Part shown: positions 59,833 through 64,000 of the stretch, in pieces | Layout: each line of letters starts with the position of its first letter | Numbering within the stretch: position 1 is the first letter of the stretch | Source: a virus | Direction: 5' to 3' (one strand) | DNA: 64,000 nt | IMG/VR virus record: IMGVR_UViG_3300044631_000551 | Coordinates: 1 to 64,000 of that record | Made by a program: the position numbers and the translations under genes | The notes under the pieces: model-generated | What the model was told of the DNA's origin: nothing | Seen by the model: only the letters and a program-made list of their open reading frames with translations | Databases searched by the model: none

Positions 59833-59846
59833 ATAATAAACTCCTT

Positions 59847-59926
59847 AAAAATCAATAACTTAGCAAGGTATAAAAAACCCTTATAAATCAACGACTTATA
59901 AGGGTCTTAAAAATCAACGACTTAGC
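59847..59926. repeat. Three direct copies of the AAATCAAYRACTTA repeat
   Basis: Plus-strand copies begin AAAAATCAATAACTTAG (59847), ATAAATCAACGACTTA (59884) and AAAAATCAACGACTTAG (59909), spaced about 25-37 nt. The middle one forms the loop and part of the stem of the terminator. Related copies are at 52739-52756 and 52791-52814. Confidence 0.75.
59872..59904 (-). terminator. Strong terminator of the csgG-cyclase operon
   Basis: Nine-base-pair perfect stem CCCTTATAA / TTATAAGGG with a nine-base loop, followed on the minus strand by TTTTTT. It lies 26 nt after the cyclase stop codon. Confidence 0.88.
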
Positions 59927-59929
59927 GTA

Positions 59930-61957
59930 TTATTTTGAAGTCGCTCGGTAAATACCGTCCCAGCCATCTTTTCGCTTCATTCCGCTAATTCGCTCAATCA
60001 TGATATCATAGTATTCAGCCATCTTTCCATCAAAATGGAACTTTAGTTGTTCGGCTGTCGCGATCGCAAGTTTGAACTCTTGGTTGTAATAATACTCCAA
60101 GAACAATTTGTGTTTATTGATTCCAGCTCGGTCATCAGGAACGACGGTGAAAATATGTACACCCTCTGTCTTTCCTTTTACCGCAATGTAGTCCAACTCA
60201 ATAATCGGGAACTCGTCTTCAACGTATTCAGCAGTCTTCGGACCAATGATTAACTTAACACCGTAGGACTTACTTTGTCCTTCTAGTCTTGCAGCCAAGT
60301 TGACACCGTCCCCCAAACAAGTATAATCGAAACGCTGAACAGACCCCATATTACCCACAACAACAACATCAGTGTTAATGCCAAGTCCCATACCAAACGC
60401 AGGAATCCCTTCTTTGGATATTTCTTCATTAAATTTCTCCAGGTCACCTAGCATAGCTAAACCTGTACGCAAAGCATTCTTCGCGTGTTCGGCATCATCA
60501 AGAGGAGCATTCCAAAAAGCCATCTGAGCGTCGCCAATGTATTTGTCTAGCGTACCCTCGTTCTCAATAATCTTCTGTGTCATCGCAGTCATATAACGAT
60601 TCATAATTTTAGTCAGACCTTGTACGTCTTTTCCGTAGTGTTCTGAAATAGTTGTAAAGCCACGAACGTCAGTAAACATAATTGACAGCTCGCGTGATTC
60701 GCCACCTAGTTGTAGCAGGTCTGGGTTTTCCTGTAGCTTCTCAACCATCGCTGGTGACAAGTATGTACCGAACTGCTTTTTAATTTGTTGCTTGAGTAGG
60801 AAGTTCTCGAGGAACTTAGCAAATGAAGCATGAGCGAATATAACAAGCATGCCTAGAACTGGTAGCGAAGCATCAAGTAGCAGATACTCAGTTTTCCAGT
60901 AGTGATATGATGCATAACCAAACCCACCAGCAATTAGAATAACCAACGGAAGAACTAGTTTCATTGGTGCTTTATAAACAGCTAGAATAATTAACAGACC
61001 AACGAATAGAATAATAACCAGCTCAAGGAAGTCAGCGTAGTCAGGGCGAACGATTGTGTTGCCATTTAGAACTGTTTGTAATAGATTAGCCTGAACTTCA
61101 TGCGGATACATTGAGCCGACAGAAGTAGGAACTGGGTTGGCTACACCCTCAGCGGTTACACCCCAGATAAGAAACTTGCCAGCTGTATTTTCAGGTGTGA
61201 TGTCAGCAGCTGATATAGAGTCAAACTCATTCCAATAAGAAATATAGACAGAGCCATCAGCAGTTGTTTTAATTGGCTCAAACTTAGGAATGCGAACAGC
61301 TTCAACGCCAGCTTCACCGACTTTCATTTGATACGAGATATCACCAGCAGCGACGCGAATAGTTTCAAGCGCAACTGATGGATAGATTTGCTCATTAGCG
61401 CCAACGACCATTGGTAGTTTGCGGATTGTACCATCAACGTCACCGATAGTAGAGGATACACCTACACCGCTTGACGCTTCAGCTAGAATTGTTACTGGCG
61501 GTAGAATACCAGACCAGCTGTTTACATAATCAAATGGATTACCGCCGACAGTTGCGGTTCCTACGTGTGGTCCAAGACCTTCAATAGATTGGTCAGTTGG
61601 TGCTGACGAAATGATGGTGGCTCTTCGCGCGAGCGCGTCCGCGAACACTTGATCTTTACCGAAACGGTCTTCTTCTGAATAGATGACAGTAAATACGCTG
61701 ATGCTGTCTTCTGCAGTTCTATCTAAAAGATTAGCAAACTTATCGCGCGACCAAGACCACTGACCGTATTCTTTAATAGCTTTCTCGTCGATGTTGACTA
61801 ATAGCACATCGCTGGACTTAATCTGCTCGTGGCTACGTTGTAGCGAGTCAAAGTAAGTTAGTCGTGTGGCTTCAACCAAGAATGGGTCATAGAAGCGCAG
61901 GGCGACCAAGAGTCCGAGTGTAATTAATGCTAGATACCACTTTGTTAGGAATTTCAT
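59930..61957 (-). CDS. CHASE2-domain membrane adenylate cyclase (class III)
   Basis: This 675-residue protein has a first transmembrane helix at residues 8-22. Residues about 25-305 form a periplasmic CHASE2 sensor domain (LVNIDEKAIKEYGQWSWSRD). Residues about 308-380 contain three further helices (DFLELVIILFVGLLIILAVY and following). Residues 420-605 are a class III nucleotide cyclase. The catalytic set is present: metal ligands D430 (FTDVRGF) and D476 (YIGDAQ), adenine-selecting K472 and T546, transition-state N553 and R557 (GDGVNLAARLE). K/T at the base-selecting positions favours cAMP over cGMP. It overlaps the FecR gene by 4 nt. A membrane cyclase is very unusual for a phage. Confidence 0.92.
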   Translation of the reverse strand: MKFLTKWYLALITLGLLVALRFYDPFLVEATRLTYFDSLQRSHEQIKSSDVLLVNIDEKAIKEYGQWSWSRDKFANLLDRTAEDSISVFTVIYSEEDRFGKDQVFADALARRATIISSAPTDQSIEGLGPHVGTATVGGNPFDYVNSWSGILPPVTILAEASSGVGVSSTIGDVDGTIRKLPMVVGANEQIYPSVALETIRVAAGDISYQMKVGEAGVEAVRIPKFEPIKTTADGSVYISYWNEFDSISAADITPENTAGKFLIWGVTAEGVANPVPTSVGSMYPHEVQANLLQTVLNGNTIVRPDYADFLELVIILFVGLLIILAVYKAPMKLVLPLVILIAGGFGYASYHYWKTEYLLLDASLPVLGMLVIFAHASFAKFLENFLLKQQIKKQFGTYLSPAMVEKLQENPDLLQLGGESRELSIMFTDVRGFTTISEHYGKDVQGLTKIMNRYMTAMTQKIIENEGTLDKYIGDAQMAFWNAPLDDAEHAKNALRTGLAMLGDLEKFNEEISKEGIPAFGMGLGINTDVVVVGNMGSVQRFDYTCLGDGVNLAARLEGQSKSYGVKLIIGPKTAEYVEDEFPIIELDYIAVKGKTEGVHIFTVVPDDRAGINKHKLFLEYYYNQEFKLAIATAEQLKFHFDGKMAEYYDIMIERISGMKRKDGWDGIYRATSK

Positions 61958-63045
61958 TTCTTCTGCCTTATAATAATTGTATTGCTGTCACCACCATTGA
62001 TGACCACATTGAACTCTTTACCATCAAGATTAAAGATAATGTTGTAAGCTGTTTTCTCATCAAGCACTAATTTAATCTTTCCGTTGTTATCCTTAGATAT
62101 AGTTATAATATCTTTATTTAATACTGTTAGCAAACCTGTCTGCGCGTCAAGTCCGATATCTGTACCTGTAATTTCAGCAGCAGTGCGAACCTCACCCAAC
62201 TTCGCTTCTTGTAACTTATCTACTTCAATCATAACTGGGATAATGTCAGCCAGATAATCTACTTCAAGATAGTTAATGTCAATATCATTAAACTCTAGCG
62301 CGTCTCTTTCTTGTTCGATTGCTAGGTAGTCTACGTCAAGTTCGTTGTAAGCAAGCGCATCTTCCTCTAGTATCATCTCATCTTCTTCCTGCTCTACTAC
62401 TTTAGGAGGATTAACAATAAGCATATTGTTGATCTGGTCTAAGGAAAGGTCGAGGATGGCTGGTTTAGTTGGAGCTGAGTCGCTCGAGAATGCAACGGTT
62501 GACTGCATAGATTTGTTTAGTACCACCGAGCCACCATTGGTAGCAACTAAGATTTCACCAGATGGTGCACCGTTCTCATCGGGGAGAAGGATTACTAAAC
62601 TACGACCCAGTTCGTCAACGGTGATTGTGAAGTCTGTACCACGAACTGCGATCTGTGATGTGGGTGTTTTAATTGATACGTTTTTCTTATCAATACGATT
62701 CATCTTTCCAGTAGCAAATCTGGCTGTCCCACTTGCGAAGTTGACAGCCAGTTTGCCTTTACTTGGATTAGGATCGTAAACGAATTCATCTATTACGACT
62801 TTACTCTGTTCGGTGACTCGAAGTATCGAGCCATCTAGGAAATCGATCTTTATACGACCATTTCCTGTTCTTACATCATCACGCATCTCGATTCCCAGCT
62901 GTAATTTAGCTGGGAGCGGAGTCTTTCTTACAACTGAACCTGTTCCCTTCAGCTCGGTGATTGAACCAATCTTAGACTCAGCAGCCAGAGGTGCCAGTGT
63001 TAGACTGATAAACACAAATGGTAGAAGGAGTTTGTGCAGTTCCAC
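61954..63045 (-). CDS. Secreted FecR-domain protein
   Basis: This 363-residue protein starts at GTG 63045 and has a signal peptide (LLLPFVFISLTLAPLAAES). Residues about 25-170 are a FecR domain: GSVVRKTPLPAKLQLGIEMR, DDVRTGNGRIKIDFLDGSIL, KGKLAVNFASGTARFATGKM and IKTPTSQIAVRGTDFTITVD. Residues about 215-275 are acidic with repeated ELDVDYLAI / DIDINYLEV units, and the end is beta-rich. It should lie in the periplasm. The coding start overlaps the end of the curlin-like gene by 68 nt. FecR-CHASE2 cyclase pairs are known in bacteria, so it may be the partner or ligand of the CHASE2 sensor. Confidence 0.88.
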   Translation of the reverse strand: MELHKLLLPFVFISLTLAPLAAESKIGSITELKGTGSVVRKTPLPAKLQLGIEMRDDVRTGNGRIKIDFLDGSILRVTEQSKVVIDEFVYDPNPSKGKLAVNFASGTARFATGKMNRIDKKNVSIKTPTSQIAVRGTDFTITVDELGRSLVILLPDENGAPSGEILVATNGGSVVLNKSMQSTVAFSSDSAPTKPAILDLSLDQINNMLIVNPPKVVEQEEDEMILEEDALAYNELDVDYLAIEQERDALEFNDIDINYLEVDYLADIIPVMIEVDKLQEAKLGEVRTAAEITGTDIGLDAQTGLLTVLNKDIITISKDNNGKIKLVLDEKTAYNIIFNLDGKEFNVVINGGDSNTIIIRQKK

Positions 63046-63694
63046 TAGTTGTACTCTCTATGGTAATTGAGTTGGTTTCAGTTGCGCCAGCCTGTGTAAT
63101 GTTGAAGTTTGTATAATCGCCAGTGTGGTCGATGTTTACCATATGTCCAGCATACCCAGTTGCGCTTGTTGTTACGTTGTTGTAATTACCAACCATTGTA
63201 ATGGTGCTTTCAGCATTCTCTGAGTTTACAGTAGCATTGAAGTTATTGTAATCACCAGTAATGTCCCATGTGAAAATTGAACCATCAGCCACATCAGCTG
63301 TACCAACGTTCATTAGCAGAGTATTATTTCCGCCAACAATGTTGATATCATACTGCGTATCGTCTGCGCTGAATGAACCATTTGGGTTATTGTTTAGTGT
63401 TATTTCGTTATTATCGCCGTATCCCATGATTGTTGCTAGGATACCGTTGCCGTATAACCAACCATATAGCGAGTTATTATTACCAGTTTGTGTTATGGTA
63501 ATATCTTGTTGGTCGCCGTTAAAGTAAAACGGTGTTTGACCGTCATCAGAACCTATGGTGTTATTTTCACCTGTTTGTTCCATAACGATAGTTGCTTGTT
63601 GACCAACCTGATTAATATAAATCTGGTTGTCTGTAGCCTGACCTAATACTGTACCTGTCATCAAAAGCATAACAAAGAAGATGGCGTTCTTCAT
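62978..63694 (-). CDS. Secreted curlin-like repeat protein
   Basis: This 238-residue protein has a signal peptide MKNAIFFVMLLMTGTVLGQA. The mature chain consists of short strand-turn-strand units resembling CsgA/CsgB curlin repeats: INQVGQQATIVMEQTGENNT, ITITQTGNNNSLYG, MGYGDNNEITL, ITGDYNNFNATV, MVGNYNNVTTS, IDHTGDYTNFNITQAGATET. The spacing is 23-32 residues with Gly/Asn turns and Gln before Gly as in curlins. It lies directly upstream of FecR and 12 nt after a CsgG-type gene, so it is the probable cargo of that channel. It ends with two Cys, unusual for curlins. Confidence 0.78.
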   Translation of the reverse strand: MKNAIFFVMLLMTGTVLGQATDNQIYINQVGQQATIVMEQTGENNTIGSDDGQTPFYFNGDQQDITITQTGNNNSLYGWLYGNGILATIMGYGDNNEITLNNNPNGSFSADDTQYDINIVGGNNTLLMNVGTADVADGSIFTWDITGDYNNFNATVNSENAESTITMVGNYNNVTTSATGYAGHMVNIDHTGDYTNFNITQAGATETNSITIESTTSGTAQTPSTICVYQSNTGTSGC

Positions 63695-63706
63695 TTACTT
63701 TTCCTT

Positions 63707-64000
63707 TTATTTGAATTGCCAGTATCCTTTCGCCTTACCGTCTTTGATAAGTTGTAACACTGCTTCTTCTATTGCTTTTTGCGTTGCGATGTTTACAGAC
63801 TCGTTTTGAGCTGTTCCGTTTTCAACTTCGACGAGTGCCGTTCCTGCTTCGACGAAACGAAACACATCCTGCGAGTATCCTACCGACAGAATTGTCTTAG
63901 TTGAAATAACATCTATAAGAACTTCGCCTGTCGCAACCGAAACCAAACGAAGTGAAACTGTAACTGTATCTTTAACATAGCGTTTAGATGCACCGATACC
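63707..64000 (-). CDS. csgG: Curli secretion channel CsgG, C-terminal part (window edge)
   Basis: The open frame runs off the right edge with 97 residues visible. They match the end of CsgG: RYVKDTVTVSLRLVSVATGE then VLIDVISTKTILSVGYSQDV, FRFVEAGTALVEVENGTAQN, then IATQKAIEEAVLQLIKDGKA and KGYWQF. In E. coli CsgG the corresponding segments are VSTGE, SKTILS and VFRF. The protein forms the outer-membrane pore for curlin export. Its N-terminus and any csgE/csgF genes lie outside. The internal TTG at 63946 is not taken as a start because homology continues before it. Confidence 0.92.
   Translation of the reverse strand, partial: GIGASKRYVKDTVTVSLRLVSVATGEVLIDVISTKTILSVGYSQDVFRFVEAGTALVEVENGTAQNESVNIATQKAIEEAVLQLIKDGKAKGYWQFK

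Follow-up and report, generated by a model that had tools for sequence, protein, structure and literature searches.

What is an operon that joins a curli-type export pore to an adenylate cyclase doing in a phage? The question was raised by the right end of a 64,000-nucleotide stretch (the window, bases 1–64000 of the 84,438-bp IMG/VR phage record IMGVR_UViG_3300044631_000551), in which the first-pass annotation had recognized genes for a CsgG channel, a curlin-like protein, a FecR protein and a CHASE2-domain cyclase on one strand. The interpretation favored here, with a rough probability of 0.55, is a phage curli-type (type VIII) secretion module with an envelope-sensed cyclic AMP (cAMP) output, probably acting late in infection. 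The gene cluster as such is already known, real and well conserved; what this analysis adds is a revised list of parts, a late-promoter motif, the swapping of cyclase output domains, a wider range of phages and rare bacterial copies.

The csgF and csgG genes have been reported in pelagimyophages (PMC7029224, 2020) and in the methylophage Melnitz (PMC9004378, 2022), and csgF, csgG, CsgA/B, FecR and adenylate cyclase in pelagiphage podoviruses and myoviruses (PMC9599517, 2022), with curli-type modules described as widespread in ocean phages (PMC9599517). The full combination is thus not new: PMC9599517 describes it, and the HTVC008M and Melnitz annotations include it. CHASE2 is not named in the accessible main texts of the three papers. 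The window phage shares with the PMC9599517 cluster, as far as that text describes it, and with HTVC008M and Melnitz the order csgF, csgG, curlin repeat, FecR and cyclase, and with the latter two also short genes of the TM95 type before csgF, while it lacks the second curlin-type gene that both carry between FecR and cyclase. Its five proteins are 28–51% identical to their HTVC008M/Melnitz counterparts.

Operon structure and integrity of the record

The operon continues beyond position 64000 of the record and all its members lie on the minus strand (record and window positions coincide up to 64000):

59874..59908, minus strand: hairpin followed by T residues, downstream of the cyclase gene and a likely terminator (fold z -4.3, 0/200 shuffles equally stable)
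59930..61957, minus strand: CHASE2-domain class III adenylate cyclase, 675 amino acids (CHASE2 E 7e-37, Guanylate_cyc E 2e-16)
61954..63045, minus strand: FecR-domain protein, 363 amino acids, signal-peptide-like start (PF04773 E 7e-13)
62978..63694, minus strand: curlin-repeat protein, 238 amino acids, predicted all-beta (Curlin_rpt matches in its family, structure model)
63707..64546 of the record, minus strand: CsgG outer-membrane pore, its C-terminal part (63707..64000) in the window (CsgG E 5e-50)
64497..64958 of the record, minus strand: csgF (CsgF E 3e-15)
65006..65296 of the record, minus strand: TM95-2
65460..65747 of the record, minus strand: TM95-1 (phrog_18771 for the TM95 pair, E 6e-34 and 5e-34)
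65770..65781 of the record: late-promoter palindrome TATTTATAAATA, carrying TATAAATA on both strands
65834..66448 of the record, plus strand: divergent GH19-type endolysin (Glyco_hydro_19 E 2e-7)

The coordinates and spacings of the four genes first noticed were confirmed: cyclase and FecR overlap by 4 nt, FecR and curlin overlap by 68 nt, and a gap of 12 nt separates curlin from csgG. The names CsgG, FecR, CHASE2 and cyclase were all borne out by significant profile matches, and extension past position 64000 placed csgF directly upstream of csgG. The strong terminator proposed after the last gene holds as a hairpin with a T run, but it was not among the terminators listed by a simple scan. 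The curlin/FecR overlap (62978–63045 here) recurs: taken from longest reading frames, it spans 32–92 nt in about four fifths of 170 loci, a hint that the two genes are translationally coupled. Just past the cyclase (59844–59923), AAGTYRTTGATTTWTAAG occurs in three exact minus-strand copies, one of them inside the terminator-like hairpin; with up to two mismatches it has four matches in the window vs 0.16 expected.

A chimeric right end, which the first-pass annotation had considered, was refuted by loci from nine other contigs that are colinear with the record (four 99.7–99.96%, four about 94–97% and one 86–92% identical), several of which run through the operon into both flanks (L007/L088, L008/L089, L009/L090 and L091).

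Secretion genes and their distribution among viruses

Both hallmarks of curli-type secretion, a CsgG pore with a lipoprotein start and a CsgF partner, are present in the record, and together with the curlin-repeat candidate substrate they resemble the bacterial curli (type VIII) system. Proteins of the CsgG family are outer-membrane proteins; a lipobox-like start was found in 200 of 212 phage and bacterial members. The window curlin-like protein is supported as a member of the curlin-repeat family by several lines of sequence and model evidence: 20 of 25 members of its family match Curlin_rpt at E <= 1 (best 2.5e-10), its repeat motif occurs in 6 copies vs 1.7 in shuffles (12 of 2000 shuffles having as many), and its all-beta model (predicted local distance difference test, pLDDT, 84.9; predicted template-modelling score, pTM, 0.80) resembles phage proteins named 'Curlin associated' (E 3.6e-12, template-modelling score 0.81). 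A second structure comparison returned Suf proteins and beta-helices with Z up to 17.4, indicating a similar arrangement only. The protein is a candidate subunit of an amyloid fibre.

Scans of IMG/VR found at least 581 CsgG relatives, 387 cyclases and at least 589 TM95 proteins, the best 80 loci of each being kept; together with HTVC008M and Melnitz this gave a viral set of 241 loci, part of which overlap within the same contig. The search for FecR and CHASE2-cyclase neighbors of csgG proposed by the first-pass annotation was productive: 129 loci, chosen for holding all five genes and non-redundant by CsgG sequence, were complete. CsgF, CsgG, curlin and FecR lie on one strand in 125 of the 129, with the cyclase on that strand in 116; TM95 is present in 128, in two or more copies in 91, and a second curlin gene follows FecR in 58. 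This arrangement bears on the proposal that an ungated CsgG is an uptake pore admitting nutrients or cofactors for the infected cell (PMC7029224, PMC9599517). The proposal draws on the reported absence of csgE from the phage clusters (PMC9599517, as far as its text describes them), but leaves unexplained the curlin gene between csgG and FecR in 125/129 loci of a set so chosen, and is regarded as very improbable.

Among 26 hand-picked records, mostly large, csgG was present in 21, including all seven contigs above 200 kb. The T4-like records of this set have terminases 41–57% like that of the window, four csgG contigs of 278–349 kb have terminases only 32–36% like it, and seven records gave no terminase match. 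The module is thus also present on contigs of up to 349 kb; in the accessible literature on it, no report of its occurrence in phages of very large genome size was found. Among other named phages, an unannotated Salmonella phage record of 1,499 bases was matched by CsgG, and two Acinetobacter phage records by the isolated cyclase domain. The twelve best matches of the window terminase (51–56%) belong to T4-like phages of several hosts, a pelagiphage being only the seventh. Beyond the window lie 12 transfer RNA genes and a permuted transfer-messenger RNA (tmRNA) gene (L003:11287-11624, record 75725-76062; L002:15667-17568), whose tag is VKANDSYYNQALAA; Melnitz likewise has a tmRNA.

FecR-domain protein and CHASE2 cyclase

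FecR regulators of the anti-sigma type consist of a cytoplasmic N-terminal part, a membrane helix and a periplasmic FecR domain. By hydropathy, the window protein has a single hydrophobic segment (residues 3–21) and no cytoplasmic regulator half, so that it looks secreted. In its family (151 proteins, hydropathy only) 115 have one N-terminal segment, 24 none, 10 two and two have one elsewhere. FecR-domain genes also adjoin 8 of 29 ordinary bacterial CHASE2-cyclase genes within flanks of about 1.3 kb, three of the eight being in opposite orientation and one other weak (18 bits). A Burkholderia biofilm operon, as described in the accessible text of PMC5192318, likewise places a secreted FecR-domain protein beside a CHASE2 membrane sensor, with the differences that the sensor there is a histidine kinase, that its FecR partner carries a LysM domain and that curli genes are not mentioned. 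Since FecR adjoins bacterial CHASE2 cyclases and LysM-FecR is paired with a CHASE2 kinase in Burkholderia, a periplasmic or envelope signal for the phage pair is plausible by analogy. The envelope sensing suggested at first thus gained these parallels, while the sensing itself stays inferred.

The window cyclase has predicted membrane segments at residues 10–28, 310–328 and 359–377 (hydropathy), and its catalytic part matches solved adenylate cyclases, e.g. 1wc1 and CyaB 3r5g. It holds all class III motif residues (two Asp, Lys, Asn, Arg), whose roles we take to be the usual ones, and would on this motif produce cAMP. The two Asp, Lys and Arg are kept in 147 of 154 distinct cyclases, and the motif types are Thr+Asn in 85, Ser+Asn in 34 and Asp+Ser in 28. 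No cNMP-binding (cyclic nucleotide monophosphate) domain was found in 18 phage records, which leaves no candidate for a phage-encoded cAMP receptor among them, so that the target would be the host's; all three operon-carrying bacterial genomes have four to seven matches each. The antisense strand of the cyclase gene contains a perfect 12/12 sigma-70-type promoter sequence (60300–60327).

The catalytic part of the window cyclase is 85.7% identical to that of L262, against 34.7% for the CHASE2 parts of the two enzymes; for L017 and L025 the values are 42% and 80%, respectively. When 37 representatives are compared pairwise, the identities of the two parts correlate at 0.29. These values indicate that output domains are exchanged between phages and moved between sensors. 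Such exchange might reflect a contest in which the cyclase, through its product, targets the nucleotide signalling or the defences of the host, the secretion genes providing sensory context. This is considered very unlikely: recombination alone could give the exchange, and the catalytic parts are generally the more conserved (median identity 48% vs 35% for CHASE2).

TM95, apparently in place of a histidine kinase

TM95 is a membrane protein of about 95 amino acids, present in the record as two paralogues upstream of csgF and found in other lineages, singly or in pairs, either there or beside the cyclase. At the threshold used, 171 of 299 distinct TM95 proteins have one hydrophobic segment, 80 two and 48 none. 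Positive charges are commoner after the segment in 139 of the 171 and before it in 4, and hence the tail should face the cytoplasm. Its best Pfam match has E 0.039, NCBIfam gave nothing at 0.01, and no kinase match was obtained; a match to a holin family is weak (E 0.0065 and 0.018). Assignment to a known family through a PDB profile search was dropped, the matches being weak and largely to coiled coils (best E 0.011). TM95 was likewise rejected as a general phage gene: each query matched 6 of 50,697 phage records (E <= 0.5), those of HTVC008M and Melnitz, and a module gene is present in 73 of the 80 TM95 loci and in 33 of the 35 whose flanks measure 8 kb or more on each side. The two exceptions, L250 (58.6-kb contig) and L255 (48.8-kb contig), lie on contigs without csgG that are perhaps fragments.

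In PMC9599517, as far as that source was available, the genes are read as a regulated type VIII secretion system (T8SS), in which a histidine kinase, an iron-type FecR regulator and the cyclase switch the curli genes on. The gene set and order are identical to those found here. In the record, however, no histidine kinase precedes csgF, that slot being occupied by TM95; HATPase_c was absent from 20 of 20 records (that of the window and 19 picked among csgG loci), with the control positive in 14 of 14 genomes. The 'histidine kinase' slot thus appears to hold TM95, a protein without a kinase domain and tied to the module, and the published label itself may mean TM95; this identification is based on position, size and copy number. 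As the FecR protein shows no cytoplasmic part in hydropathy and the 18 phage records have no cNMP-binding domain, such regulation of the curli genes is judged quite unlikely.

Late-promoter motif and timing

The palindrome, which contains TATAAATA in both orientations, separates the endolysin from the first TM95 gene; TATAAAT is used as a T4-like late promoter according to PMC9004378, so far as its accessible text goes. The 18-kb stretch with the palindrome has 3 copies of TATAAATA vs 0.96 expected (9 of 200 shuffles having as many), and in the whole record 10 of 12 copies are within 120 nt upstream of a same-strand gene, gene starts being taken by longest reading frame (random mean 0.73, maximum 4). 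The motif was found at 47 of 169 non-redundant first TM95 genes vs 66 of 8450 random stretches, and at 8 of 37 csgF genes without TM95 upstream. A search for sigma-70 promoters gave no signal (17 vs 16.4 in shuffles). Judged from its sequence, the operon starts at a T4-type late-promoter motif common to the divergent endolysin gene, and the module is probably expressed late.

Extending an idea in the accessible text of PMC9004378, the module might be a lysis device that works with the endolysin to release progeny, CsgGF forming a pinholin or gated pore and TM95 being holin-like. The palindrome common to operon and endolysin, the weak holin-family match, the small size, membrane nature and often tandem arrangement of TM95 and its absence from three bacterial copies all speak for it. 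An endolysin beside TM95 is not the rule, however, a homologous lysin being found within 1 kb of TM95 in 3 loci only; CsgG is an outer-membrane protein, and the curlin, FecR and cyclase genes are all left unexplained. A lysis device is therefore held to be unlikely.

Proposed function

In the favored interpretation, a sensing secretion module, the phage would place CsgG with CsgF into the host outer membrane, and the curlin-repeat protein would be exported through them. The FecR-domain protein would be secreted to the periplasm and, with the inner-membrane CHASE2 cyclase, would sense the state of the envelope or of secretion, while the cyclase would make cAMP acting through a host protein. TM95 would be a phage-specific inner-membrane addition with a cytoplasmic charged tail, which perhaps ties the module to the lysis schedule.

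The gene identities, their order and conservation, the late-promoter motif and the cyclase motif are direct observations. Several points weigh against the rest. Secretion, fibre formation, FecR-CHASE2 coupling, cAMP output and the role of TM95 are inferred only, so that of the curlin-like secretion and host cAMP tuning first suggested the gene families hold and the two activities stay predictions. The cAMP would need a host target. The curlin-like label stands on the family repeats, the motif count and the model, but the window protein has no Pfam curlin match of its own, and Foldseek with its model gave nothing among solved structures at E <= 0.001. The motif Asn is kept in 119 of 154 cyclases, 28 having Ser instead and 7 falling outside the pattern; and 122 of 169 first TM95 genes are without the late motif. 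Of the consequences suggested at first, a superinfection block and an opening of the envelope stay conjectural, as does host clumping, for which the authors of PMC9004378, in its accessible text, saw no evidence in Melnitz. Should the kinase label prove mistaken and FecR be no more than a secreted domain, the sole signalling enzyme left would be the CHASE2 cyclase, and whether infection raises cAMP, and when, would become testable.

Bacterial copies and the direction of transfer

A scan of bacterial genomes for csgG gave at least 580 loci, of which the best 80 were kept: nine are phage-like, three carry the module and 68 are ordinary. Eight of the phage-like loci have a TM95-type module (L165, L166, L170, L173, L174, L178, L182, L184) and are binned as bacteria (Maricaulis, Pelagibacter, Saprospirales, Planctomycetaceae, Sphingobacteriales, Rhodobacteraceae), probably being phage contigs inside bacterial genome bins; the ninth, L171, is a 3-kb piece. 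The three module loci, L167 (Hyphomonas sp. TMED17, 705-kb contig), L168 and L169 (Caulobacteraceae), have the same csgF-csgG-curlin-FecR-cyclase series with one or two curlin genes each and differ from the phage loci in having no TM95; by inspection of translations, L167 and L169 have bacterial flanks. The 68 ordinary loci, as far as their flanks were examined, showed neither a FecR nor a CHASE2-cyclase gene, both of which the module adds. The bacterial operon is not common: among 398 genomes of the order of the Hyphomonas genome (at most two cyclase candidates scored per genome), 58 had a cyclase match, 41 a CsgG match and 5 both, and only one had CsgG and cyclase within 10 kb.

Clustering left 51 of 195 viral and 34 of 71 bacterial rows for the CsgG tree, with the nine phage-like loci counted as viral and L169 represented by L168. 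The module (phage-type) clade was split from the ordinary T8SS with support 100, L167 and L168 fell inside the phage clade, joined with four phages in a six-member set (support 99), and a phage-only clade was rejected (p 0.0086). The FecR tree agrees with the CsgG tree (p 0.037), with L167 on a long branch, and in the cyclase tree L167, L168 and L169 grouped together (support 82) at an open fork close to the phages L092 and L263. Capture of the bacterial operons from phages would most simply explain these trees, although there may instead have been several transfers from bacteria to phages. The three operons modify the statement in PMC9599517, as available, that FecR and cyclase are not within bacterial T8SS operons; they do not contradict, at the root, the alphaproteobacterial origin of the phage module concluded in the same source.

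A wider proposal, rather doubtful as a whole, is that the module is not simply a borrowed bacterial operon, but an envelope device evolved by phages. It would have diversified in phages, on contigs ranging from some tens of kilobases to 349 kb, its output domains being swapped as interchangeable units while the secretion and sensor scaffold stayed conserved and the phage-only TM95 pair linked it to late infection, while a few Caulobacterales would have captured it, dropped TM95 and put it to use as a cAMP-coupled surface system. If this is true, bacterial capture of a phage-diversified module would be an unusual direction of transfer. The bacterial copies would offer a lysis-free version of the module.

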